Shown: positions 38,193 to 61,574, counted from the first letter of the stretch. The stretch is DNA of 64,000 nt from Caldisericia bacterium (GCA_017992475.1 JAGOOO010000003.1:1-64000), one strand, 5' to 3'. The notes: a model not told the origin generated them from the sequence alone. Program-made: numbers and translations.

Positions 38193-38221
38193 TTGAACTT
38201 GACCCCAAGATTTCGTGTATT
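38193..38221 (+). promoter_or_regulatory. Possible promoter of the second giant gene
   Basis: TTGAAC is followed after 17 bases by TGTATT, a moderate match. It lies about 40 bases before the ATG at 38263, which has AAAGGAG. Confidence 0.4.
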
Positions 38222-38262
38222 TGAAGCAAATCAGCCATGAATGCATCGAAAGGAGTTTCAAG

Positions 38263-41200
38263 ATGAGAAAGCTCTTGGCTACAATGCTAACGCTCGCGGT
38301 GGCGCTCACCGTGGTTCCGTTTTTTGGCGAAATACCACAGGCTTATGCCGAAACAAAAAACATACTTTTTGCAGTAGTCAGGTGGTCTCCGCTTGGACAG
38401 GACAGGAGCGGCCAGCCACTCTCCGGCAGGGTCGTTCCGTGGACTTCCGGCGATATTTCCACCTGGTGGGGCAGGCAGCAATTTCCGATGCCGTCCCAGC
38501 CAAGGTATTGGTCGGAAGTTTATCTTACCGTTATTGGTGCAGGCGGGCAGTCCACTGAAAAAGACAAGATGAACTGCATCCTGGACTCAAACGGCAACAT
38601 CTGGTTTGACCCGGACGGCTATTTCCACAATGCTGCCGAAAGAGCAAGACCAGACCCGCCAGGTCAGTGTTACGACTACAACTTCAAGACAGACAATACT
38701 CCGGCCAACAACACACAGGGCCCATATAGGGTCGGCGACTATGCAAACTTCTTCCACAACAAGGGCTACTGGTTCACGCCGATCAGCCATCAACATGGCC
38801 CATACACCTTCCCGCGCAATTTTTCAGGGAGGCTTTTCAAGTTGGGGCAGGCTGCGCTTCCTGGCAATGGAATGGCTCTTGTCATGTCAGAGACCTTCCT
38901 TGCATCTTGCGATCCGAACACCTCCTACAACCTCTCGGTTGAAACCGATATGTGGGAAGGCGTCAATCCGGCCGTTACCGCTGCATCAATCTTTGACCCT
39001 GAAAACCCGACACTCAGAAGATCGCAGAGAATCCAGAAATCAACCGTGCTTGGCCCTACTGGCCTGGATTTTCAGGTCCCGGCAACCACTTTTTTCAATG
39101 TTAAGCCGTCTTACAGGAGCTACGTAGGCATTGAGATATTTAGGGATTCTGGTGAAAACAATATCAACAACCCGCAAGGTCAGTGCTTTGCCCAAAACCT
39201 TTCTGATGACTACAAGGCCTTGTATGCCTGTGAGGATTTCATTGGCGCCTCAAATTCAGGAGTGAATGATTCCGATACCGGCCTCCCACTAAAACCCTTC
39301 CCGGCAAGCTTCAGGTATTACGACAGCGGCGGAACCGGTTTTGGCTGTGGCGAGCCGATATATGACAACCTCAACACCGCCCAGGACCCGTTCATGAACG
39401 ACATCGTCAACCCTGGCGACAAGCGTATGACCACCGTCACGTTTAGTGTTGGTGGAGCTATAGTCACCTATGAGGCTGGCTCGTATGTTTCAGCCGGTGA
39501 TGTCGATAATGGCTATATTATTCGTCCATTCACGAACGTTGGCTGGTTTGATGCCAACAATAACAACGAGTTTGAAGAGGGTGAATGGATTTATCAGGAC
39601 AATGATCTTTCCAACTCCGTAACTGCCGGTGACGTTCGTCTGACGGTGGTCAACAAGAATGGCAACACCTATCAGTGCGGAACGGTTGTTGCCGGCCCTG
39701 AGCTTTACATAAGGAGCTATCCGATTTCTGGTATAACTGTTGGAAGGTGCGGCAATTTCCGCTTCATGGACATGGAGGTCCTGCCGGGTGTTGCACCTGT
39801 GCAGGTGAATGTCTCGAGACCGTTCAAGGTCGAACAGACCTCGGAAGTCAATTTGACAATGAACCCGGCGCCTGACGAAGGCAGAATAGCCTACATAGTG
39901 CTGACTGATGCCTCAGGCCAGAGAAACGTTGCTGGAACGATAACCAAAGATCGCCCAAGAGCCACTGTCCAGATAACTCCCTATGAAGGCTCTTGCGACG
40001 AATTTGGCAGGATTCACCCATATCTTATAGAGGTTTATTATGAAAAGGGTACTGGCAAACCACAAGACATTGGTTGGGGAGGCCCGCCAGATGGAACTTA
40101 CGGATATTGGGTTGTTCCTTCCCCGCAGATCCTGAACAACACCATTATTCCGAACAACTATGACTGCTACCTGGCAAAAGAGTTCACGGTGGAGCCGGAA
40201 GACATGTATTTTGACTGCAGCACCGTCTGTCTTACAAACATCTCGACCCGCTACCCGAACTTTGTTTTGACCCTCAAAGATTTTGACAACCCATATGATG
40301 TGAATGACCTCAATGGCGTCAACATCTCAACCACGGCTTCTGCAGGCAATATTATTGCCTACTACAATTGCACAGGGGCCGGCATCGACTGGATGTTTAC
40401 CGCTGGCACTGGCACAAACAGATACATAGTCCAGGTCAACAAGGATGGCACATACTATTACTGGGCCTGGAACGACAACCAGAGCCCGACGCCAGGCATT
40501 GGTGCCATTGGCGCACTTGACCAGGAAGACACTGTTGTTGGGCCGACACAGGGCAATATCAATTCAGGCAGTCTTGTTGATATAGACTGCTCTGGAAGAT
40601 TTGCAGAATGCGACATCTGTGGCCAGGGCTTCGAAAAAATGGGTGTTGTGACCAAAGGCGACACATGGGGCCAGTTTGACGGCGTCAATTTGCCAGTCAT
40701 TGAAACGTATGGTGTGCCATGCTTTGTCACCACATACAAGACGACCCCATGGGCCGATCCAGGTGGAAGCATAATGGTGGCCTGCTGGCCACCAGACCGC
40801 ACCTCCAGCCTGAATGTAAGGGTGCACACTGATAATGCACTTTGGGATTACAACAGCACAATCACCCACCCACCATACTTTATCACCTCGCCTGCCAAGG
40901 GCACCGACTATTGTGGTGTCCACGTCATCCCGCCAACTGCCTCCGGTGGAGGAGGCGGTGGAGGCGGAGGTGGTGGCGGTGGTGGAGGAGGAGGCGGCGG
41001 GGGTGGTGGCTCCGGTGGTTATGGAGACATCAATTTCGTCGAATTTACCGCAATTGACCACGCCCTCCAGTACTCCAGCGTCAACTACACCTCTGGCTCT
41101 GGTGCCCTGTCCAGGATGCCACCCCCGGCCTCCCAGATACAGTCACCTTATGACCCTGTTCTTTCAAATCTTGTCAGGGAATTCAGGGCATATCCTGGTG

Positions 41201-44200
41201 GACAGACACACCCAATCAGGGTGCAAGGTGGAATGGGGGACGGAAGGAACGCATATCCTGCCATATTCCGCGACCAGGTGTGGAAGCTTGGAACAGAGTT
41301 CCTGCCTCTCACAGATTATGGTCTTTTCTTTATGCTCACAAATGCAAGGAGCGAGTTCCTCTCGTTCAATGCAACAGACAGCGACCACAAGATACAGTGG
41401 ATAGAAATAACCGGGCCATTCATGACGCCAAGATTCCCGATCACCGACTATACATACAATGGCCTCAGGAATGTGCCAGTACAGTATGACTATTCTGGCA
41501 GGATTGTGGTTGACCAGACCAACTGGAGAGACTACGAGCTTGCCCCGCAAGACTTCACCAGGATCATAAACCCTGGATTCAAGGACCGCTATGTCTACCA
41601 GCAGGCCAACCAGAGGCTCCTCCAGAGCAGAAGGCTGGACTATTCGATGGTCAATGGCAACGTGTTTGTTTTTGACGAGATAATCCCGGTTGACAGAGGT
41701 GTCATAAGGATCGAAGTCAAGCTGGCAAACGGCCAGTCAAGGATCTGGGAAGATTGCTGCCAGGAGTACAGGATACAGGGAATCCCGGTCCACGGGCTCC
41801 ACATAGAAGGTGCACCCGGGACACTCGGAATCATTGCCGACAACGTCCTTGATGTCAAAATCACCGAATGGGAAGACATCCAGGTGGTCAGGGAATGCAA
41901 CGATGCAATGGCCTATGTCTGGCAGGACAGGGGTGTCCTCCAGCAGATGGGCGGCAACGTTTTCTTTGGCGCAGGCGATGGCTGGGTGACAAACGGCCCG
42001 TCATCCTCTGTTGGCTCCGGCTCGGCTGGCGCCTTCAGCAGTGACATGGACCTGAACGGTGACGGAAGAATTTCTTTTGATGCCTACGAAACCGAGCTCA
42101 TTGGCGCCTACAACCTGGCGACCAACAGCTGGGTGGGCGGCATCATTGATGCAAGGACTTATCAGCGCAACAACGGCAGGTATGTCTTTGACATGAGCCT
42201 TTCAAACGGCTGCAGGATTGAAGATGCCGGCCTTGATTTCAACAATGACCATGTTATTGCAGAGGACGAAAGATTGCCGGTCAATCTGACCGTTTACAAA
42301 TATTATGATGATAACAACGACAGGAGCTTTGCCCCTCTCTGGAACGTCCCTGGAACCAGGCAGTACTACTCGCACGAGGTTTACCTTGCCGGCCAGGTAA
42401 GCATGTATCCGGAGCCAGGTGGCGGGGTATCAAAGGACCCCAACATCATCATTGAAGTCAATCCAGGCATTGTGACTGCGGGCGTTTCCCCCGAGGTTGT
42501 CAATTCGAACCAGCCACTGACCTTTACCATAAAGGACATAAACGGCAGGCCGGTCGACCTAACCAAGGGTGGGAAGCTGAAGCCGGAAGAGGCAGTCAGC
42601 TTCATATCTGATGCCAGACCGGAACGTGTTGGTGCCTATTACTGGACAGTGACCTCACTGCGCAACAAAGATGGCACAATATCGGACAATGAGCACCTGT
42701 TTGGCGAGTTCAAGCCGATAGGCTACGATTTCTCGCAGGCCTCCAAAGGCATATACAAGTTCACAGGTTTTGTGGCCAATGACGAGGGTGAAATACAGAT
42801 AAAAGTACGCTCGTCCGACTACAAGAGTTGGGGTGTAGGTTCAATCAAGGTCGCAAGACCAAAGGTTACCTATTCGATAACCAACGTGGCAACAGGCGAT
42901 GCTGTCACAATGAAGTGGCCGGAGGAACCAGAGGCCTGCATGACCGGCCTTGACCGCCGCGTTTACAAGGTTGTTGCAACACTCAAGGACGCACAGGGCC
43001 AGCTGCTCAAGGGCTCGTCAAAACTGCCGGGCAAGTATGGCTCTTCGACAGATTTTATCAGGTTTACCCCGTTCCTTGTCCTTGACGCCGGCGCTGATCC
43101 GGAAAAATTGACTTATTTCAACAGGTTCGGGATTTCATCAACAGGCGAAATCTCTTCCACTTCAAACCTTGTCAAGCCAATGTCTGTAAGATGCAAGACG
43201 AGCGCAAAGCTCGATGGCTCAACAATAGACCTGAAGAGCTGGGGCAAGGGTTGCGTGTACAACTCCGAGATCGCAGGCAACTACTTCTTCTCTGATTTCA
43301 ACGGTGATTCGAGGATTGACTACAAGGATTCGCTCAACCCGGATGAAAATGGAAATGTTACCTTCTACGTCTTTGCTGACCAGGTGTTTATGGTTGGCGG
43401 CCTGCTCGGTGCCAACAAGGCATCGGTCATCAAGGGAGATGTTGCCGGCGATGCCCCAAGATCACAGTCGATGGCCTTCAATCCGCTCCTCAGGTACAAG
43501 GGCGATGGCACATTTGCACTCGACTGGGACACCCCGACAGTAACCAATGTTCCGATAAAGCAGCCTGTTATAAGGCTCTATGACCAGAACGTCGGCGATG
43601 AGCTTTCCACAGGGTTCCTGTCGCCTTCCAATTACGACCTTGCCTATGGCACCGACAATGTTTTTGTGGCAAGGGTGACGCCAGCATGTCAGAAGGAAAC
43701 GGACCCGATAAAGCCTGGTGGAATAATTGAAGTCGCAAGCGTGGGCGCAAAGTCTGAAGTAAAAACCAGCGTCGAGACCACCCAGAGCAAGGTTGACCCA
43801 AAGGCCTCCGAGGCCATTGTCCACTACACGCCGACAAGCAACACCGGCACATCGGTTGCAACCCTCAGCTATAAGGCAAAGGCCACATTCGGGGAAGACG
43901 TTGTCATAGCCCGCAAGTCGCTTGAGTTTGATGTTGCAAAGGGCGCAAGCCTCAATGTTGTTTATGCCGGCACCTTCTACCCCGGACTCCAGAAGAAGAT
44001 CGCCGTCACGGTTGAAGACGTTGCCTCCAGGGCGCCACTCTCCAATGTCACTGTAACGGTGCAAGGAGCAGGCGTCATGATGGAGGCCAAGACAGGGCCA
44101 AAGGGTGAAGTTGAATTTGATGTCCTACCGACAAAGCCAGGCAAGATAGTCGCCAGGCTGGACAGCGGAACATACATAACGGTGAACCCGCAGGTAATAG

Positions 44201-45087
44201 AAGTTGTTTCACCTGTCGCCCCGCCGCCTCTTGAGATTGAAGAGGTGTCGCCTCTTACAAAGGAAGACCAGATAACAATCAGGGGCAAGACAAACTCCGA
44301 GGCGGTGGTCTCTGTTGGTGGAAACCCGGTGAGTGTTGGCTCTGATGGCGTGTTCTTTGTCACCGTCACGCTCAAGGAAGGTGTAAACGAAATCGAAGTC
44401 GTTGCCGCCAATCCTGTTGGCACAAAGATTTCAAAGAAGATCACCATCACAAAAGACACGACCCCGCCAGTGGTTGAATTTGTCCAGCCGAAAACAAAGC
44501 TTGTGAATGCAAAGCAGGTTGAGGTTGAAGGCAATGCCAGCGAGAAAGCAAAACTGGCCATTGATGGAAAAATCATCGAAGTCGGGCCGGGCAAGTTTGT
44601 GGTCACACTCGATCTTGTGCTTGGCAAAAACACATTCAAGTTTGAGGCAACCGATGCCCTTGGCAACCAGTCCAGGCCGACCCTTGAGCTGTACAACTGG
44701 CAGATAAAGCTGGTTCAGATGAAGATAGGAAACGATGTTATGCTTGTCGATGGCCAGATAAGCAAGCTCGATGTGGCGCCCTATGTTGACCCGCAAACCA
44801 GCAGGACACTTGTACCTGTCAGGGCGATTGCCCAGGCCTTTGGCGCGAAGGTTGACTGGAACGCCCAGGTCAAGCAGGTGACCATAACCCTTGGCAAGGA
44901 CCTGATCATGATGACAATCGGCTCGAAGGTCGCCATTGTGAATGGAAAGATCTCCCAGCTTGAACAACCACCACTGATAAAAGACGGCAGGACAGTCCTC
45001 CCGTTCAGGTTCATAGCCGAGGTGCTTGGCGCAGAGGTGCAGTGGAACGGCGACGAGAAGACGATAACGATGACCAGATACTACTAG
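38263..45087 (+). CDS. Giant secreted calcium-loop protein with poly-Gly tract and CuAO-N-type C-terminus
   Basis: The 2274-aa protein starts at the ATG with AAAGGAG seven bases upstream. A signal peptide ends near AYAET. It is paralogous along its length to the giant protein at the left edge (NIWFDPDGYF, NNTQGPY, YNLSVETDMWEGV, MAYVWQDRGV). Calcium-type loops occur at DMDLNGDGRISFDAYE and DFNGDSRIDYKDS. A run of 22 glycines sits in the middle. The C-terminal third has Ig-like domains (DGVFFVTVTLKEGVNEIEVV) and ends in a CuAO_N1 domain (SRTLVPVRAIAQAFGAKV; GRTVLPFRFIAEVLGAEV) that the paralogue lacks. The paralogue instead has about 300 extra residues near its N-terminus. Probably an abundant surface component; function unproven. 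Confidence 0.85.
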   Translation: MRKLLATMLTLAVALTVVPFFGEIPQAYAETKNILFAVVRWSPLGQDRSGQPLSGRVVPWTSGDISTWWGRQQFPMPSQPRYWSEVYLTVIGAGGQSTEKDKMNCILDSNGNIWFDPDGYFHNAAERARPDPPGQCYDYNFKTDNTPANNTQGPYRVGDYANFFHNKGYWFTPISHQHGPYTFPRNFSGRLFKLGQAALPGNGMALVMSETFLASCDPNTSYNLSVETDMWEGVNPAVTAASIFDPENPTLRRSQRIQKSTVLGPTGLDFQVPATTFFNVKPSYRSYVGIEIFRDSGENNINNPQGQCFAQNLSDDYKALYACEDFIGASNSGVNDSDTGLPLKPFPASFRYYDSGGTGFGCGEPIYDNLNTAQDPFMNDIVNPGDKRMTTVTFSVGGAIVTYEAGSYVSAGDVDNGYIIRPFTNVGWFDANNNNEFEEGEWIYQDNDLSNSVTAGDVRLTVVNKNGNTYQCGTVVAGPELYIRSYPISGITVGRCGNFRFMDMEVLPGVAPVQVNVSRPFKVEQTSEVNLTMNPAPDEGRIAYIVLTDASGQRNVAGTITKDRPRATVQITPYEGSCDEFGRIHPYLIEVYYEKGTGKPQDIGWGGPPDGTYGYWVVPSPQILNNTIIPNNYDCYLAKEFTVEPEDMYFDCSTVCLTNISTRYPNFVLTLKDFDNPYDVNDLNGVNISTTASAGNIIAYYNCTGAGIDWMFTAGTGTNRYIVQVNKDGTYYYWAWNDNQSPTPGIGAIGALDQEDTVVGPTQGNINSGSLVDIDCSGRFAECDICGQGFEKMGVVTKGDTWGQFDGVNLPVIETYGVPCFVTTYKTTPWADPGGSIMVACWPPDRTSSLNVRVHTDNALWDYNSTITHPPYFITSPAKGTDYCGVHVIPPTASGGGGGGGGGGGGGGGGGGGGGGSGGYGDINFVEFTAIDHALQYSSVNYTSGSGALSRMPPPASQIQSPYDPVLSNLVREFRAYPGGQTHPIRVQGGMGDGRNAYPAIFRDQVWKLGTEFLPLTDYGLFFMLTNARSEFLSFNATDSDHKIQWIEITGPFMTPRFPITDYTYNGLRNVPVQYDYSGRIVVDQTNWRDYELAPQDFTRIINPGFKDRYVYQQANQRLLQSRRLDYSMVNGNVFVFDEIIPVDRGVIRIEVKLANGQSRIWEDCCQEYRIQGIPVHGLHIEGAPGTLGIIADNVLDVKITEWEDIQVVRECNDAMAYVWQDRGVLQQMGGNVFFGAGDGWVTNGPSSSVGSGSAGAFSSDMDLNGDGRISFDAYETELIGAYNLATNSWVGGIIDARTYQRNNGRYVFDMSLSNGCRIEDAGLDFNNDHVIAEDERLPVNLTVYKYYDDNNDRSFAPLWNVPGTRQYYSHEVYLAGQVSMYPEPGGGVSKDPNIIIEVNPGIVTAGVSPEVVNSNQPLTFTIKDINGRPVDLTKGGKLKPEEAVSFISDARPERVGAYYWTVTSLRNKDGTISDNEHLFGEFKPIGYDFSQASKGIYKFTGFVANDEGEIQIKVRSSDYKSWGVGSIKVARPKVTYSITNVATGDAVTMKWPEEPEACMTGLDRRVYKVVATLKDAQGQLLKGSSKLPGKYGSSTDFIRFTPFLVLDAGADPEKLTYFNRFGISSTGEISSTSNLVKPMSVRCKTSAKLDGSTIDLKSWGKGCVYNSEIAGNYFFSDFNGDSRIDYKDSLNPDENGNVTFYVFADQVFMVGGLLGANKASVIKGDVAGDAPRSQSMAFNPLLRYKGDGTFALDWDTPTVTNVPIKQPVIRLYDQNVGDELSTGFLSPSNYDLAYGTDNVFVARVTPACQKETDPIKPGGIIEVASVGAKSEVKTSVETTQSKVDPKASEAIVHYTPTSNTGTSVATLSYKAKATFGEDVVIARKSLEFDVAKGASLNVVYAGTFYPGLQKKIAVTVEDVASRAPLSNVTVTVQGAGVMMEAKTGPKGEVEFDVLPTKPGKIVARLDSGTYITVNPQVIEVVSPVAPPPLEIEEVSPLTKEDQITIRGKTNSEAVVSVGGNPVSVGSDGVFFVTVTLKEGVNEIEVVAANPVGTKISKKITITKDTTPPVVEFVQPKTKLVNAKQVEVEGNASEKAKLAIDGKIIEVGPGKFVVTLDLVLGKNTFKFEATDALGNQSRPTLELYNWQIKLVQMKIGNDVMLVDGQISKLDVAPYVDPQTSRTLVPVRAIAQAFGAKVDWNAQVKQVTITLGKDLIMMTIGSKVAIVNGKISQLEQPPLIKDGRTVLPFRFIAEVLGAEVQWNGDEKTITMTRYY
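40945..41010 (+). repeat. Run of 22 glycine codons
   Basis: Twenty-two consecutive GGN codons use all four glycine codons in irregular order, followed by SGGYG. The paralogue has an ordinary sequence at this place. Confidence 0.97.
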
Positions 45088-54365: not shown

Positions 54366-55646
54366 TCAGGGCTTGCCTGCCCAGACCACTACATATCTTT
54401 CCCCAAATTTCTTGATGAAGGCCGAAAGGCCCTCGCAGAACCTGTGTTCGATGTATCCATTTCCGGCATCAAGCCATGTCCCGTCTGAATCATAAAAGCT
54501 GGCATTTGCAATTTCTTCTGGTATCTCAAGCTTGCTTCCATCGGGAAGGACCGTGATTGTCTTTGATAGGCCATTCGAAAACGTCATTTTCAGGGCCACC
54601 GAGCCAGAATACTTTATGGCGGTTATGTTTGTAGGAAAGCGCTTCAGGGGTTCAAAGAATTTTGCCTGCCCGGAAGTGGTATCAAAAACAGCAATTGAGT
54701 AGCCAGTTTCTGTGGCAAGCGCTGCTGCAACAAGGCCATTTCCGAGAAAACAGACTGGTGAGGCCTGTTTTTTTATGTGGTTGAAAACACCAAGCCCGTA
54801 TTCGCCTTCCCAGAGGATTTTTGTTTTGGTGCCATCATCAAGGAGCAGTTTTTGCCTTCCCTGATCGTCAACGTAGGTGTAAACAATATTTACACCCATT
54901 GATTTTCCGAGGAATCTTGCTTTTCCAGTGTAGCTTGCAATTTCTTTTGTTCCGGAGAAAAGGGTGAATTTACTGCCATCATTTTTTGGGGTGACGGTTT
55001 CCTGTTTGGTCTCGCCTGTCAATTGCTGTGGTTTTACTGATGGTTTTTTCCAGCCGTCTTCAATGAGGGAAAGCGAGATGGCCGGGTCAGCATTCAGCCT
55101 TAAATAGACAGCCCCGTACGCTTCGCCATTTTTCAATACCACTAGACCTGAGAGATGGTTGTAGTCTCCCGGGACACCGGAAATCCTGCACATCTTTTCC
55201 CAGTCACCTTGTATTGGTGTTGTCTCCAGATCAAGCTCTTTGCCGATTTTGCCAGTTAATGGATCATAAACATAGAGAAAGCTGTTTGTCGATTTTGGGG
55301 AAGTCCTTATCCTGACGGCCTTGTCTACCAGAACGGGTTTTATTGAGTCTGATTCAACAGGTTCTTTTGAGAGGCTGATTACAAATCTGTCTCCCTGCCC
55401 TTTTTTGTACAGGATTTCTTCCTGTGCTGGCAGGTACCCCGTTACCTTTGCTTCTATCTTGTGGACACCTTCTTCAAGCTCAAGCTGTGCTGGAGAAGTA
55501 TATTCCTTGCCTTCAAAGATGATTGTTCCACCCTTTGGGTTTGTCTCTATGGTAACTGCCCCGCCGCCACAGCCTGCAAGAAACAGTATGGCGAGGATTA
55601 TCGCCGGGAATTTATTTAGCAAAGAGCGATAGGAGAAGGCTGTCAT
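54366..55646 (-). CDS. PEGA-domain lipoprotein
   Basis: The 426-aa protein has lipobox LFLAGC. Next comes a PEGA-type domain (VTIETNPKGGTIIFEGKEY; LELEEGVHKIEAKVTGYLPA), known in surface lipoproteins. A C-terminal beta-rich domain carries repeated propeller-like strands. The ATG at 55646 overlaps the 3' end of the upstream lipoprotein gene by 35 bp. An internal TTG at 55622 is an alternative start, lying just before that gene's stop. It is the last gene of the lipoprotein cluster. Confidence 0.75.
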   Translation of the reverse strand: MTAFSYRSLLNKFPAIILAILFLAGCGGGAVTIETNPKGGTIIFEGKEYTSPAQLELEEGVHKIEAKVTGYLPAQEEILYKKGQGDRFVISLSKEPVESDSIKPVLVDKAVRIRTSPKSTNSFLYVYDPLTGKIGKELDLETTPIQGDWEKMCRISGVPGDYNHLSGLVVLKNGEAYGAVYLRLNADPAISLSLIEDGWKKPSVKPQQLTGETKQETVTPKNDGSKFTLFSGTKEIASYTGKARFLGKSMGVNIVYTYVDDQGRQKLLLDDGTKTKILWEGEYGLGVFNHIKKQASPVCFLGNGLVAAALATETGYSIAVFDTTSGQAKFFEPLKRFPTNITAIKYSGSVALKMTFSNGLSKTITVLPDGSKLEIPEEIANASFYDSDGTWLDAGNGYIEHRFCEGLSAFIKKFGERYVVVWAGKP

Positions 55647-56655
55647 AATCCTGCTTAAGATCAACACCCTGTTTGTTCTGGACATAGGTTATAGCATAGT
55701 ATTTGTCGTCTTTTGTGTAAACCGTCTGGACCTGTTTTATTCCGCCATCGGAGTAGACAAACTGGTAACCGATGCCTGAGCCAAGCTGTACGGAAACGGG
55801 AGTTGTGCTTCCTTCAATTGAGGAGGTCATTATTTTGGCGATGTTCTCTGCCTTTTCTGTGTTGCCAGTCTGAGTGGCAATCATGATGCTCCCCTGTGTC
55901 TTGTCTGGCGGGAAAAGGGTGATGAGCATGTCCGTTGTTTTTTCTACTGTCCAGTTTTTTGGGAGGATTATCTTGAAATAATCATTTTCGAAAGACTCGC
56001 CAGTTGGGAGCTTGTTCGGAACTTCAACATCTGGTTTGCCTACTGGCTCATTGCCGCCTGTCGGCTTTTTTTCCGGATCGGTAGAGGTTTGCTGGCCAGA
56101 TGGGTTTTGCGGGTCTGTTGTTTTGCCACCGTTTCCTGATGGTGCTTGCTTTTCTATTTTTGTTATTTTTGCAACAAAGCTTGCTGCCATGTTGCTGGCG
56201 GTTTCGATGACCTGATTTTCGTAATCGCCCTGGGTGAGCTGGATGTTATAGACAATGCCATCAAACGGGAACAGGGCTATTACTGATTCCGGATTTTGTG
56301 TTTCAATCCACCATATTTTATTTTTTTCAAGCTCTACTGGTTCATTTTTGATTATTTTGCCTGTCAGTGTCTGGGTAAGCGAGGAAACGAGCTGATTTAT
56401 CGAGCTTGTGTCGCCAGTTTTTGATGAGGCATCGGGGGCGTAAGTTATAGAAAATTCGACATTCTCTGATTTTATAAACACCACGTTGTCTTTCTCTGCC
56501 ACCTGGTATAAAGACGGGTAGGCGATTGAAAGATGGCTGTTTTCAAAGGTTTTGTCCAGCGCAGGCGCAGATTTGCCGCACGAAGAAAGCATGACGCAGA
56601 CTGATATAAAGACCAAAGCGGGTGTGTTATGTAATCTTCTTGATATGTTCATCAT
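55612..56655 (-). CDS. Two-domain PsbP-like lipoprotein, paralogue 1
   Basis: The 347-aa protein has lipobox VMLSSC. Two ~140-residue domains begin FENSHLSIAYPSLYQV and FENDYFKIILPKNWTV, joined by a Pro/Gly/Thr-rich linker (residues ~180-225). Each domain matches the PsbP/Mog1-like pattern (F-x-I-x-P, a W or Y, then helix and strands). GGAGA precedes the ATG. A TTGACA promoter is upstream. It forms an operon with the overlapping PEGA gene. Confidence 0.75.
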   Translation of the reverse strand: MMNISRRLHNTPALVFISVCVMLSSCGKSAPALDKTFENSHLSIAYPSLYQVAEKDNVVFIKSENVEFSITYAPDASSKTGDTSSINQLVSSLTQTLTGKIIKNEPVELEKNKIWWIETQNPESVIALFPFDGIVYNIQLTQGDYENQVIETASNMAASFVAKITKIEKQAPSGNGGKTTDPQNPSGQQTSTDPEKKPTGGNEPVGKPDVEVPNKLPTGESFENDYFKIILPKNWTVEKTTDMLITLFPPDKTQGSIMIATQTGNTEKAENIAKIMTSSIEGSTTPVSVQLGSGIGYQFVYSDGGIKQVQTVYTKDDKYYAITYVQNKQGVDLKQDYDSLLLSLFAK

Positions 56656-56671
56656 TGTTCTCCAAGAGACC

Positions 56672-56700
56672 TATTTTGCAATCATAGCTATATATGTCAA
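56672..56700 (-). promoter_or_regulatory. Promoter of the paralogue-1 lipoprotein operon
   Basis: Perfect TTGACA on the minus strand, then AAAATA after 17 bases (or CAAAAT after 16). Confidence 0.6.
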
Positions 56701-56783
56701 CATCGTATTTTATCCAAACAATTAAGTGATGGTTTAGTCGCATCAATACATCATACATCCCATATCGTGATTTTTATCCATAA

Positions 56784-56813
56784 AAAATGCCCCCTCAAAA
56801 GAGAGGGCATTTT
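56784..56813 (-). terminator. Terminator after paralogue 2
   Basis: AAAATGCCC-CTC pairs with GAG-GGGCATTTT around AAAA with one mismatch. The minus strand continues in a T-run. Confidence 0.85.
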
Positions 56814-56835
56814 GTTGCAGCAGGGAAATTGTGGC

Positions 56836-57789
56836 CTAGTTTGTTTTTATAGTTTCAAGCATCTTTTGTATGTCGCTTGAGAGACCATCCTGGATCATTA
56901 TCACTATCATGATGTTGTTTTTTTCTCCAACAAGGTCGGTCATAGCGGTTCTGCCATCCATTGTCAAAAAATCAATCCTGTCATATTCGATTTCACCAAT
57001 TTTTTCGGTTGATTCTTTTACCTTCAAATCAGCACTTTGCTTAAGGCCTTCTCTTAAGCTTTTTGTATAGTCGTCCTTTTTCATTCCTTGGCGATCAAGT
57101 ATCACCATCGAGAACGTTCTGTTGGCCGCATTTGTTAATGTTATTGTACTGGTGAGTTTTTCATATTTGGAAGTCCAACCCTCAAGCGGTGTGATTGTAA
57201 TTTTTTCTGCCACAAGCGGCTGGCCAAATTTTGTCTCTTCGGTTTTTGGAGTGGTTTCGGTGTCCTTTTTTTCAGGCTCTTTTTTTGTGAAGTAGTCAGG
57301 TTTTGTTATCTTGAAGGACTCAATGGCCATTTTTACAAGATCGAGCTTCTCCTGCCCTTCGACCTCCGCGCCAACACCAACCATGAGGACGGCCTTGTCG
57401 ACGGCCGTAATGAACATAAACCCGCCCTTTTCTTCCTTCTTGCTCTTTGCCAAGAGCCAGACACCCTTCTGGCCATTTATTTCCTTCTCCTCGGTTGAGA
57501 GGTCGAAGTCCTCGTTTCCACCAAGCTCTTTGAGGAGCTGGTCTGAATATGTCTTGATCTCGGCAACATCATTTGCTTTTATTTGCTCGTTTGGAACGGA
57601 CTCGATCATTATTCCAACGCCGTCCCCACTGATTGTTGTCAGAGACGGATTTTCCTCGACCTTCCAGGAACCCGGGTGGCTTATGCTGAAATAGGGCCCT
57701 TCATAAGTTTCGTCCAGTGTGGTTTTTCCGCATGAAATAAGGGTCAACCCTATGATGACTGTCAGCAGAATGTTTTGGAGTTTTTTCAT
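56836..57789 (-). CDS. Two-domain PsbP-like lipoprotein, paralogue 2
   Basis: The 317-aa protein has lipobox LTLISC. Domain 1 begins YEGPYFSISHPGSWKVEE. A charged linker (KKEPEKKDTETTPKTEE) leads to domain 2 (LVAEKITITPLEGWTSKY). The pattern F/I-x-I-x-P-x-x-W is shared with the neighbours. AAGGAGA precedes the ATG. Twelve bases separate it from paralogue 3, so they are co-transcribed and end at the terminator at 56784. Confidence 0.75.
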   Translation of the reverse strand: MKKLQNILLTVIIGLTLISCGKTTLDETYEGPYFSISHPGSWKVEENPSLTTISGDGVGIMIESVPNEQIKANDVAEIKTYSDQLLKELGGNEDFDLSTEEKEINGQKGVWLLAKSKKEEKGGFMFITAVDKAVLMVGVGAEVEGQEKLDLVKMAIESFKITKPDYFTKKEPEKKDTETTPKTEETKFGQPLVAEKITITPLEGWTSKYEKLTSTITLTNAANRTFSMVILDRQGMKKDDYTKSLREGLKQSADLKVKESTEKIGEIEYDRIDFLTMDGRTAMTDLVGEKNNIMIVIMIQDGLSSDIQKMLETIKTN

Positions 57790-57801
57790 TTTTTTCTCTC
57801 C

Positions 57802-58755
57802 TTATTTTTTTATCTTGATGCTTTCAAGCATCGTTTCGATGTCTCCGCTTAATTCCCCTGCAATCAGGGCTTTTATTATCTTGCCATCTTTTTCGCCAAC
57901 AATATACATAAGTGGGGCACCGTCTTTTTTTGCTGGCAAATCATACCTGTAATACATCATTTCGGCAAACTTGAACGGTTTTGGGCCAGCGACCTTGTCT
58001 TTGTTTACCATTGCATTTTTGAATGATTCCAGGAACTCCTCCAGTGCCATTTGCCCTTTGTCCATGATCCCAACCTCTATGTTTGGTGCGTAGGGTGTCT
58101 GTTTTGCTTTTGTGCTGTCAGGAAGCAGGCGCAACCTGACATTGCTGTTTTTCAGGTCTTTTTCCCCTGCCCACTCTTTTGCTGGTGTTATAGAGAATGT
58201 CTCAGTTTCGATTGTCTTTGATGATCCATTGACATTGTAATTCTTGGCGAAATCTTCCACCCTGTTTTTGAAATAACCCTCGTCCTTGATCCTGAAGCTT
58301 TCGGCAATTCTTCTGGCTTTGTCCATGCCGGTTTTAAGATTAACTGGTTGTGCCAGGCCCACCCACACAACGACATTTTGTATTGGTACATACATTATCA
58401 AGCCGCCTGTGCCCTGGTTTTTGTTTTCAACTTCAACCCAGATACATGGAATCGAGCCGCATTTGCTTTCCCTTTCGGTCACGGTGTTTGATGTATCTTT
58501 GCTCATGCTCTCCACGAGTTGTTTTGCAGATTGTCTTGCGACCTCAATCTTCTCGGTGTTTGAATAGTCCATGTTTGGCTGGACTTTCATAAATATTTCA
58601 TCATCAAAAACCATGAATGTATCACCCTCGGCAAGAGTTTTCATGCCCTGGTCATATTCTATCTCGAACCATCCGCCATCATGTTTTGTGGGTGGTTGTC
58701 CGCCACAGGAAATGGCAAAGAGGGCCAACAGCAAAAAAGCAACAAGTTTCTTCAT
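57802..58755 (-). CDS. Two-domain PsbP-like lipoprotein, paralogue 3
   Basis: The 317-aa protein has lipobox LFAISC. Domain 1 begins HDGGWFEIEYDQGMKTLA, with a short GSIPCIWVEVEN core. Domain 2 begins IETETFSITPAKEWAGEK. It is the same length as paralogue 2. GGAGG precedes the ATG. It is the first gene of a two-gene operon with a TTGACA promoter. Confidence 0.75.
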   Translation of the reverse strand: MKKLVAFLLLALFAISCGGQPPTKHDGGWFEIEYDQGMKTLAEGDTFMVFDDEIFMKVQPNMDYSNTEKIEVARQSAKQLVESMSKDTSNTVTERESKCGSIPCIWVEVENKNQGTGGLIMYVPIQNVVVWVGLAQPVNLKTGMDKARRIAESFRIKDEGYFKNRVEDFAKNYNVNGSSKTIETETFSITPAKEWAGEKDLKNSNVRLRLLPDSTKAKQTPYAPNIEVGIMDKGQMALEEFLESFKNAMVNKDKVAGPKPFKFAEMMYYRYDLPAKKDGAPLMYIVGEKDGKIIKALIAGELSGDIETMLESIKIKK

Positions 58756-58773
58756 TCAAATTCCTCCGCATAA

Positions 58774-58801
58774 AAAGTAGTCCCAAAAATTGGCTTGTCA
58801 A
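58774..58801 (-). promoter_or_regulatory. Promoter of paralogues 3 and 2
   Basis: TTGACA, 16 bases and TACTTT on the minus strand, followed by GGAGG and the ATG at 58755. Confidence 0.65.
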
Positions 58802-58813
58802 AGGTCATTAAAA

Positions 58814-58847
58814 CAAAAAAACCGGCTGTTTTGAGCCGGTTTTTTTG
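58814..58847 (-). terminator. Terminator after paralogue 4
   Basis: AACCGGCT and AGCCGGTT around a six-base loop with long A- and T-runs on both sides. Confidence 0.92.
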
Positions 58848-58867
58848 TTGGTTCTTTAAAATGGTTC

Positions 58868-59461
58868 TTACTTTGTTTCGACTGAATTGAGCATTCCTTC
58901 GATTTCGGCATCAATATCGGTGCCATTAAGGCTAATATTGATAACCTGGTTACCCTTAATTCCGAAAAGACTTATTGCTTTGTTGTTTTCTACGCTGAAA
59001 GTAAGTGTAGTGTAGTCAATGCCTGCGTAGGAAGCTTTACCTTCTTCAATTGAAGTTGCCTTGCTTTCGACCAGATTTTTTTTCATTTGTTCAACAAAAT
59101 CTTCTATCTTGACAGGGATTTCTCCGGTTTTAACACTTGTTACGGTAATTGCCTTCCCATCATCACTCATAAGCGATATTATGTCTATATCACCATTCTG
59201 CTGATCCTTTGGTGCTTCGGGAGTATTGTTTTTCCAACCCTCGGCAATGCCAATTTTGAGTAGCTTGGTCTCGGCATAGTTGGCAAATGTTGCGGCCGGG
59301 GTCTGTTCGTTGTTCTGGCTTCCGGTCTGGTTCTCTGTCTGTTCTATGTTCTGGCCTTCGTCGGCTGGCTTTGTGCCCTCGTCATTTGATCCGCCACCGC
59401 AGGATGCGAAAACGGCAACGCCAAGCACCAGTATGATAAAAGTTGCGAAAAATTTCTTCAA
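58868..59461 (-). CDS. Single-domain PsbP-like lipoprotein, paralogue 4
   Basis: The 197-aa protein starts at a TTG codon with GAGGAG seven bases upstream; KKFFATFIILVLGV follows. Its lipobox is AVFASC. A Glu/Asn/Gln-rich linker (residues 24-54) precedes one domain (TKLLKIGIAEGWKN...; YAGIDYTTLTFSVENNK). It resembles the second domains of its neighbours. It is a monocistronic unit with its own promoter and terminator. Confidence 0.75.
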   Translation of the reverse strand: MKKFFATFIILVLGVAVFASCGGGSNDEGTKPADEGQNIEQTENQTGSQNNEQTPAATFANYAETKLLKIGIAEGWKNNTPEAPKDQQNGDIDIISLMSDDGKAITVTSVKTGEIPVKIEDFVEQMKKNLVESKATSIEEGKASYAGIDYTTLTFSVENNKAISLFGIKGNQVINISLNGTDIDAEIEGMLNSVETK

Positions 59462-59506
59462 GTTGAGACTCCTCTCTGTCCTTTTGGGATTTTCAAAAGC
59501 ACATAC

Positions 59507-59534
59507 ATCATATGAAGCGAATTTGTTCTTTCAA
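59507..59534 (-). promoter_or_regulatory. Promoter of paralogue 4
   Basis: TTGAAA, 16 bases and TATGAT on the minus strand. Confidence 0.6.
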
Positions 59535-59576
59535 GACGTTAAAAGCTTAATAAAATCTCAACAAAATAGTAATGAG

Positions 59577-60524
59577 TCATGGATGCTTGAAAGACATGCT
59601 TCCAATTATTTTTTCGGCGATCCTGGAGGGTTTTCCATTAAAAGATGTTGAAGACAGAAGAAAAACCTTTCCTTTTTGCCCCGAGAACATCGAAACCATT
59701 TTGGTCTGCCCGACTGAGTACTCGAACATCCAGTAGTCGTTCCCTCCGATCCTTGTTTTCTGGATTGTACCGCCTGAAAGTGATGATGACATTGACTGGC
59801 AGGCACTTTTAGGGTCCCTGTTTTCTCCAAAGACCGTTACCGTAAAACCCTGGTCGAATTTTGCAATGTCTTTTGGACAAACAAGCACAACGCCGTCTCC
59901 ACCGGCCTCCCAGCCTGACGGGAGCATCATGGAGAGGTTTTCATTTTCAAAGCGCGTTTCAAGTTTTATTTCTCCCCCATTGCCATTTTGAGATGGTGTT
60001 TCAGAGCCAAGATAGGAGCTGTCTGTTATTCTGAAAGAAATGATCATGTCCGAGGCTGATTTGAAAAATGGCGATTCAGCAACTTTCTCGCCCTCGAAAG
60101 GTTCTTTGAGTGATACCATGGCTATGTTGTTTTTTAGTGGAACGCAAATCCTTTTCCATACGATATTCTCGCCTGTCATATCGATTACGAGGCAGGGTGC
60201 GTCACCAAGTTTTGCCTCTCTAAAGCTGGCTTTTGCCCCAAGCTCGTCTGCCATTTTTTGGGACTGTTCTTTCAAAAAGGCCACTCCCCCAAAATCCCCC
60301 GGCTTGAGGCCTTCTGAAGGCTCTAATTTTACCTCAACAACAAATTTGTCGGTGACTATGCTTGTGAGGTTTCCGACAGGCTCAATTTTTGCGTTTTTTG
60401 GGTAGTCGATCCTGTAGAAGGGACCAAAATATGTTTCAGTGAGAGGCAATGGTTTTTCTTCAGTTCCACAGGAAAGAAGAGTAAGTATTGCACAAAGTGC
60501 CACAAAAATTCTGGTTGTTTTCAT
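59577..60524 (-). CDS. Two-domain PsbP-like lipoprotein, paralogue 5
   Basis: The 315-aa protein has lipobox LTLLSC. Domain 1 begins YFGPFYRIDYPKNAKIEP, very close in pattern to paralogue 2. Domain 2 begins FENENLSMMLPSGWEAGG. GGCGGAG precedes the ATG. It follows paralogue 6 after seven bases, so they are co-transcribed. No terminator hairpin was found after it. Confidence 0.75.
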   Translation of the reverse strand: MKTTRIFVALCAILTLLSCGTEEKPLPLTETYFGPFYRIDYPKNAKIEPVGNLTSIVTDKFVVEVKLEPSEGLKPGDFGGVAFLKEQSQKMADELGAKASFREAKLGDAPCLVIDMTGENIVWKRICVPLKNNIAMVSLKEPFEGEKVAESPFFKSASDMIISFRITDSSYLGSETPSQNGNGGEIKLETRFENENLSMMLPSGWEAGGDGVVLVCPKDIAKFDQGFTVTVFGENRDPKSACQSMSSSLSGGTIQKTRIGGNDYWMFEYSVGQTKMVSMFSGQKGKVFLLSSTSFNGKPSRIAEKIIGSMSFKHP

Positions 60525-60531
60525 CTCCGCC

Positions 60532-61035
60532 TCACTTGAAACGGAAGCTCTTTACTATGAGCCCTGCAAGTCTGGCGTCCTCGGCACTGGCCCCTTTTCC
60601 TGGGAACATCATGCAACTTACCACGGCATTGTCGAGTGGAACCATAAAGGCCTGCATTTTGCCCATGCCAACTTCACCCTCCATCCATAGTGCCTTTTTC
60701 CCGGATATTTCGCGGGTTTCTATTGTTCCCTGCCCTGTTTTTCCTATCGTTTTTTCAAAGGCCTGCGACAGCTCGCCTATGCTTGATATGTCGTTTTCTC
60801 TGGAACCTTCATAGGGGAAGATAGAGAATGGAATTGTAATGGATTTGTCTTTTTTGAAGATGTTGACCCCGCCGCCAACCGAGGAGAGTGTTTCCCACCC
60901 ATCCGGGTAGTAGACCTCGAAAAGATCGCCATCAAACTTGAATTTTAGCTCCTCAGGTATCTGGTTGTCTACTTTTGGGGCGCCGCAGGAGGCCAAAACA
61001 AAGAGGCACAGGCAGGCCAAAAACATTTTTTTCAT
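60532..61035 (-). CDS. Single-domain PsbP-like lipoprotein, paralogue 6
   Basis: The 167-aa protein has lipobox FVLASC. One domain runs from DGDLFEVYYPDGWETLSS to the end. There is no ribosome-binding site. The ATG at 61035 sits seven bases after TATAAT, and the ATG at 61044 overlaps that box, so the later ATG is chosen and the mRNA is probably leaderless. Confidence 0.75.
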   Translation of the reverse strand: MKKMFLACLCLFVLASCGAPKVDNQIPEELKFKFDGDLFEVYYPDGWETLSSVGGGVNIFKKDKSITIPFSIFPYEGSRENDISSIGELSQAFEKTIGKTGQGTIETREISGKKALWMEGEVGMGKMQAFMVPLDNAVVSCMMFPGKGASAEDARLAGLIVKSFRFK

Positions 61036-61042
61036 GTCATGC

Positions 61043-61074
61043 ATTATACACAAAAATGGTGCCGTTTGTTTCAA
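61043..61074 (-). promoter_or_regulatory. Promoter of paralogues 6 and 5, leaderless type
   Basis: Consensus TATAAT on the minus strand at 61048-61043, seven bases before the ATG. The -35 is weak: TTGAAA at 20 bases or GAAACA at 18. Confidence 0.55.
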
Positions 61075-61574
61075 AAAGTTGTTGTTGATCTTACGACCTG
61101 GATGGCCATGTCTGCCGTTTTCTTCAGCGGCATTTTGCTTGTGTAGATTGCTGCCACTTGCGATTCGAGAGGGAAAATTGCCGCATAGAAGACATTTTTT
61201 GCCCCGCTTGAATTGACCGTGATGCATTGCTTGCCACCAATATCTTCTATCTGGGCCTCTTTTTCCTGTTTGAGCCCCTGCGTGATTTTTTGTACTATCG
61301 GGGAGAGGGAGTCGAGGTCGCCTTCCTTCAGTCCCTGGCAGTCAAAGAGTTCAATCTTGATTTCAAAGTCACCCTTTATGGTAGCGCTGCTGTTGCCAAC
61401 AGTTTGCCAGATAAACCCTTTTGGAACGACAATTGAAACAGGACCAATCTGTTCCCTTCGCTCTTCTACCCGGGGAGTGTCTGGTGTGGCGGTTTTTGAG
61501 CATGAAGAGAGGAAAAGAAGTGCCAGCAAAAGTGCAGTGATTGCTTTATGAATGGCCAATTTGTTGCTTCGCAT
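61071..61574 (-). CDS. Single-domain lipoprotein, paralogue 7
   Basis: The 167-aa protein has lipobox LLFLSSC. One domain includes GPVSIVVPKGFIWQTVGN and ends in a helix. It is the most divergent of the seven, and membership rests on pattern, size and position. The start has only a weak AGG upstream. The gene begins 49 bases after the ribulokinase stop and could be read through from it. Confidence 0.65.
   Translation of the reverse strand: MRSNKLAIHKAITALLLALLFLSSCSKTATPDTPRVEERREQIGPVSIVVPKGFIWQTVGNSSATIKGDFEIKIELFDCQGLKEGDLDSLSPIVQKITQGLKQEKEAQIEDIGGKQCITVNSSGAKNVFYAAIFPLESQVAAIYTSKMPLKKTADMAIQVVRSTTTF

Follow-up and report, generated by a model that had tools for sequence, protein, structure and literature searches.

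Eight consecutive lipoprotein genes, all on the minus strand, occupy positions 54366-61574 of the window (the whole stretch of 64,000 nucleotides that was analysed), and seven of them are homologous, with eleven domains of ~140 residues in total. By analogy with other proteins of the same predicted fold, and with a probability of about 0.45, the array may be read as an old, lineage-specific family of lipid-anchored, non-enzymatic Mog1p/PsbP-like-fold modules that bind exported proteins or serve as their adaptors. The host genome belongs to the class Caldisericia of the Caldisericota and represents an anaerobic bacterium of a little-known phylum; its assembly comprises 1.59 Mb and is 74% complete, and all the genomes compared here are metagenome assemblies.

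A preliminary description of this DNA had proposed an array of eight lipoprotein genes, and all eight open reading frames were recovered, each with a lipobox ending in cysteine (LSSC, LISC, AISC, FASC, LLSC, LASC, LSSC and LAGC). The host genome also encodes Lgt, the lipoprotein diacylglyceryl transferase; lipobox cysteine and Lgt together mark the products as bacterial lipoproteins. The start codons were revised for D (TTG), for F (moved from 61227 to 61035 as the most likely position) and for the PEGA protein (probably at ~55646). Transcription runs in the order G, F, E, D, C, B, A, PEGA, and the array is flanked by ribulokinase, SRPBCC and transglutaminase-like genes, of which the ribulokinase gene (PRK04123; 61624-63279) lies directly upstream of G. 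The genes, with the domain classes described below, are:

61071-61574, minus strand: gene G, lipoprotein with one N-type predicted PsbP-fold domain, G1 (61074-61475), linked to E1 and F1
60532-61035, minus strand: gene F, lipoprotein with one N-type domain, F1 (60535-60966), and a sister-genus orthologue (F1 to F' 99%)
59577-60524, minus strand: gene E, lipoprotein with two domains, E1 (60009-60443) and E2 (59580-59975)
58868-59461, minus strand: gene D, lipoprotein with a TTG start, a Q/N/E-rich linker and one C-type domain, D1 (58871-59293)
57802-58755, minus strand: gene C, lipoprotein with two domains, C1 (58261-58692) and C2 (57805-58242)
56836-57789, minus strand: gene B, lipoprotein with two domains, B1 (57286-57717) and B2 (56839-57240), both of predicted PsbP fold
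55612-56655, minus strand: gene A, lipoprotein with two domains, A1 (56161-56559) and A2 (55615-56016), separated by a P/G/K-rich linker
54366-55685, minus strand: PEGA lipoprotein, the last gene of the array, with a PEGA domain followed by a propeller-like C-terminal part

The paralogy of the seven genes, suspected from the start, is supported by domain pairs, by profiles and by a bridging protein. BLAST and phmmer comparisons of domain against domain reach E values down to 1e-10 and yield no meaningful link to the PEGA protein. Profile-profile comparison separates two domain classes, with matches of 85-95% within each and 0-4% for the PEGA protein used as a control. The N-type class contains A1, B1, C1, E1, F1 and G1, and sequence links connect A2 and E2 with it as well; B2, C2 and D1 form a second, tight group. 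A single-domain lipoprotein of the sister genus (L063_5395; L063 5395-5961), encoded there in a separate array of four genes, is matched by the profiles of both classes, at 94% and 95%, while the controls for this match, 32 other open reading frames of the window and twelve shuffled sequences, all remain at or below 2.2%. By these sequence links, homology to the modelled domains B1 and B2 extends to all eleven domains. Identity among the paralogues is about 20%, and their pI ranges from 4.3 to 6.5. The motif F-x-I-x-[YH]-P-x-x-W, by which the family had been described, fared less well than the family itself: it occurs literally in one of the eleven domains (B1) and in a relaxed form in five, in the first strand. 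The family is thus defined by profile and fold, and the motif is a weak description of it. In Pfam and NCBIfam the seven paralogues have sub-threshold matches only; the best array member in the host genome for PsbP_2 (PF18933) is A2, with 21 bits against a cut-off of 27, and for PsbP (PF01789) gene F reaches 14.9 against 23.5.

The AlphaFold2 model of gene B, computed with twenty array sequences, has a mean pLDDT of 80 and a pTM of 0.74. B1 and B2 are predicted with the same order of strands and helices, a Mog1p/PsbP-like topology, rather than with unrelated folds. In a Foldseek search of the PDB, the best match is plant PsbP (E 2e-6, probability 1.0, TM-score 0.66 on the target), and the top five are all plant PsbP structures (E 2e-6 to 4e-5, probability 1.0), in line with the PsbP-like domains of the preliminary description. 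Cyanobacterial PsbP, Apa, Tsi3, DcrB and the Eag chaperones SciW and EagT6 follow at lower rank. Sequence searches of the PDB with both class profiles returned nothing significant, so the kinship to PsbP is one of fold. Gene B is the sole paralogue modelled and the fold of the other six rests on their sequence links to it; on this model, the array domains belong to the Mog1p/PsbP-like fold superfamily. A photosystem reading was considered and set low; the phylum is not known to have a photosystem.

The PEGA lipoprotein, which had been named as the closing gene of the array, carries a PEGA domain above the Pfam cut-off (PF08308; 25.4 bits against 20.8). Its model is poor overall (pLDDT 54); the C-terminal part, mostly at 60-90, is propeller-like and finds its best matches in TolB. 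This PEGA/propeller lipoprotein is likely a fixed partner of the PsbP-fold lipoproteins.

All eight genes are kept in the same order in three congeners, which indicates that the array is not a chance assembly. The sister genus has its own eight-gene counterpart, in which a PEGA lipoprotein again stands last and the transglutaminase-like and SRPBCC genes again come next. Orthologues are clearest there for A, F, B and the PEGA protein; the counterpart of gene A has three domains (A2 to A'3 98%), and the genes are packed more tightly, many of them overlapping. In a tree of 42 domains, a single branch parts the N-terminal domains together with F and G from the C-terminal domains together with D (94/88, 96% of bootstrap trees), and AU tests reject neither a single clade of all C-terminal rows (p 0.148) nor one of all N-terminal rows (p 0.48); the many long tips leave the finer branching unsure. 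Repeated fusion had been invoked for the one- and two-domain forms and is not needed: with the N- and C-terminal domains on opposite sides of one branch, a single fusion, followed by gene duplications and the loss of halves, would suffice.

The division of the array into several short operons, also part of the preliminary description, is backed by comparison of four species, through compensatory changes in the terminators and conserved promoter-like hexamers. The signals are:

59507-59534, minus strand: promoter-like site of D, TTGAAA-16-TATGAT, conserved in four species
58812-58849, minus strand: intrinsic terminator after D, hairpin and T-run, with both-side changes at 8 stem pairs in four species
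58774-58801, minus strand: promoter-like site of C-B, TTGACA-16-TACTTT, conserved in four species
56784-56813, minus strand: intrinsic terminator after B, hairpin and T-run, with both-side changes at 4 stem pairs in four species
56673-56700, minus strand: promoter-like site of A-PEGA, TTGACA-16-CAAAAT, hexamers conserved in four species

No terminator was seen in the stretch separating G from the ribulokinase gene or in that separating D from E. These sequence signals support three main transcription units, G-F-E-D, C-B and A-PEGA, with a putative internal start at the promoter-like site of D. A perfect TATAAT, also kept in four species, lies at 61043-61048, 7 bases upstream of the codon at which F likely starts; its role is unsure, and a transcript that used it would be nearly leaderless.

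All array genes are under purifying selection, with a mean dN/dS of 0.09-0.29 over four species and no broken copies. They evolve faster than the neighbouring ribulokinase and SRPBCC genes (about 0.03), and most of them resemble the transglutaminase-like (0.12) and PQQ (0.09) neighbours. An array that is old and intact across species is a real, selected gene family.

Gene D evolves fastest. In three of the four species its first 60 codons are nearly free of synonymous differences, whereas the mature domain has a dS of 1.6 and a dN of 0.36. The upstream region and leader of D (59290-59530) are ~98-100% identical in DNA across three species, against a dS of ~0.5 in neighbouring genes. A near-invariant leader joined to a highly divergent mature domain likely reflects recombination, and possibly diversifying selection. 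The ribulokinase gene also shows patchy synonymous divergence between two species (0.02-0.04 in some parts, 0.26 in others), a sign of recombination; with this mosaic pattern outside the array, exchange between species is a simpler account than a special mechanism for D. Further copies of the D leader, as in cassette-type antigenic variation, were not found in five genomes, all of them incomplete.

The usual Gram-negative envelope is unlikely for this bacterium. Omp85/BamA (PF01103) was found in none of 21 Caldisericia genomes, while seven of 14 control genomes were positive. For Caldisericum exile, a survey reports no BamA and favours a Gram-positive-type envelope, and electron micrographs with an outer-membrane-like envelope are noted (PMC4104836). 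An ordinary outer membrane is therefore unlikely in Caldisericia, and the absence of Omp85 may be compatible with an unusual outer layer. The simplest location for the lipoproteins is then the outer surface of the cytoplasmic membrane, from which they probably face outwards; they would not fall among the diderm outer-membrane lipoproteins, which belong to an Omp85/BamA-dependent outer membrane. With Omp85 missing, the array bears on the make-up of the Caldisericota cell surface.

The expansion had been judged untypical of housekeeping PsbP-like proteins, and its distribution agrees. Pfam PsbP_2 matches nothing in 14 control genomes, and with a signal-free profile (E 1e-4) the genomes of the host's family contain 8-13 matching domains each, compared with zero to two in other Caldisericia families. 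In four genomes of two such families (G008, G012, G016 and G024), a single PsbP-like lipoprotein adjoins an exported protein that ends in Cu_amine_oxidN1 and, in one case, has sub-threshold propeller matches. In the host's family only the Cu_amine_oxidN1 region of this partner is matched, with no full-length homologue among the matches listed. Together with the propeller-like PEGA lipoprotein at the end of the array, these cases suggest that PsbP-fold lipoproteins may recurrently be paired with propeller proteins.

Related loci were also observed elsewhere. In the sister genus, four single-domain lipoproteins of the PsbP fold make up a second array (L063:4842-7352), and two of them contain T- or Q-rich linkers. 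A further three small, adjacent lipoprotein-like proteins, in L082:5574-7195 and in the host's L027:7143-7658, have profile support of 85, 63 and 18%, and two of the three share the tail signature of the array domains (SFRITDSSYL, TLRVTDKDFF, SLKVTNEKYF); judging by these similarities, the three probably belong to the same PsbP-fold family. One Cu_amine_oxidN1-domain protein used as a query gave 13-85 matches per Caldisericia genome. Those listed mostly cover its C-terminal Cu_amine_oxidN1 region and lie in large proteins (e.g. 38215-45087, 2290 aa), and Cu_amine_oxidN1 may be the surface-anchoring domain of Caldisericia.

In the adaptor reading, each lipoprotein would be exported, receive its lipid from Lgt and stay anchored at the outer surface of the cytoplasmic membrane, in a host without the machinery for an ordinary outer membrane. 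Its one or two PsbP-fold modules would then act on exported or membrane proteins that differ from paralogue to paralogue, holding or assembling them in a way comparable to partner binding by PsbP and the Eag chaperones, with the PEGA/propeller lipoprotein as the likely fixed partner. The paralogues would differ in partner and share a general mode of action. The PsbP-like fold is known to serve unrelated functions, and the adaptor role is drawn from fold analogy. A different role, which we regard as unlikely although it is the most serious competitor, is that of environment-facing receptors for solute or substrate capture or for adhesion, displayed under or through the cell wall and diversified by ligand. 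The sequence divergence and pI range of the paralogues, the mature D domain as the most variable, the PEGA domain and the presence of Apa, a mycobacterial fibronectin-binding protein, among the fold matches would all suit such receptors, but transporter genes are absent in and next to the array, and, whereas most adhesin and receptor repertoires vary, the genus keeps its gene content fixed. Somewhat more doubtful still is a bolder proposal, in which a BamA-less lineage used one PsbP-fold module to build a dedicated surface apparatus of several parts, comprising the seven lipoproteins and the PEGA/propeller lipoprotein. D would then be a surface protein undergoing diversification, its mature domain swapped from species to species while the leader in front of it stays nearly invariant.

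The fixed gene content also speaks against two further roles. An array of immunity proteins, each neutralising, in the manner of the PsbP-fold lipoprotein Tsi3, a peptidoglycan-degrading toxin made by neighbours, would account for the match to Tsi3, for several related lipoproteins in a row and for the fast evolution of D. Immunity arrays turn over quickly, however, and here four species share one gene content and order, with a counterpart in the sister genus and with ribulokinase, SRPBCC and transglutaminase-like genes rather than toxins at the flanks; we consider this role very improbable. Phage-exclusion or phage-derived lipoproteins are suggested by predicted phage lipoproteins that also have the PsbP-like fold and are the best matches in a viral structure library (E 4.6e-6 and 1.5e-5). 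Yet tblastn with the domains tried, run against 50,697 phage and 72,556 plasmid records, found no relative, and purifying selection with conserved synteny points to a resident cellular locus, which makes a phage connection even less probable than immunity. At the bottom of the scale stand lipid carriers of the LprG/RseB/LppM kind: gene A has a sub-threshold Pfam match to LppM, and RseB and LprG appear among the lower-ranked fold matches, but their alignments have an r.m.s.d. of 16-18 Å and TM-scores near 0.2, and PsbP fits far better.

Among known systems, PsbP/CyanoP (PF01789) and PsbP_2 (PF18933) have the fold and topology predicted for gene B, and CyanoP is, like the array members, a lipoprotein on a membrane face. 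The array differs from these families in that its members score below the Pfam cut-offs, occur in tandem two- and three-domain forms and are encoded in a multi-gene array. The gene B model also resembles the DcrB/DUF1795 lipoproteins, of which DcrB is lipid-anchored (PMC7716261), and the Eag chaperones SciW and EagT6. The likeness to DcrB/DUF1795 is one of fold, with no Pfam match in the array at E up to 1, and unlike the Eag chaperones the array has no type VI secretion context next to it. Tsi3 has its fold in common with the gene B model, but the array is conserved and has no adjacent toxin gene, which sets it apart from Tsi3-type immunity proteins. The single PsbP_2-like lipoproteins of other Caldisericia families belong to the same domain family (99.6-99.7% against a profile that includes them; 79% for the G008 protein to B1 with an independent profile), yet each is one gene beside a Cu_amine_oxidN1-ending exported protein, unlike the eight-gene array. 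No description of such an array was found in the literature searched; the fold is already known, and the array with its multi-domain forms appears undescribed there. The PsbP fold is best known from single proteins of photosystem II, and the seven conserved paralogues, in one- to three-domain forms, would offer a natural series for what the fold binds and how the choice of partner evolves.
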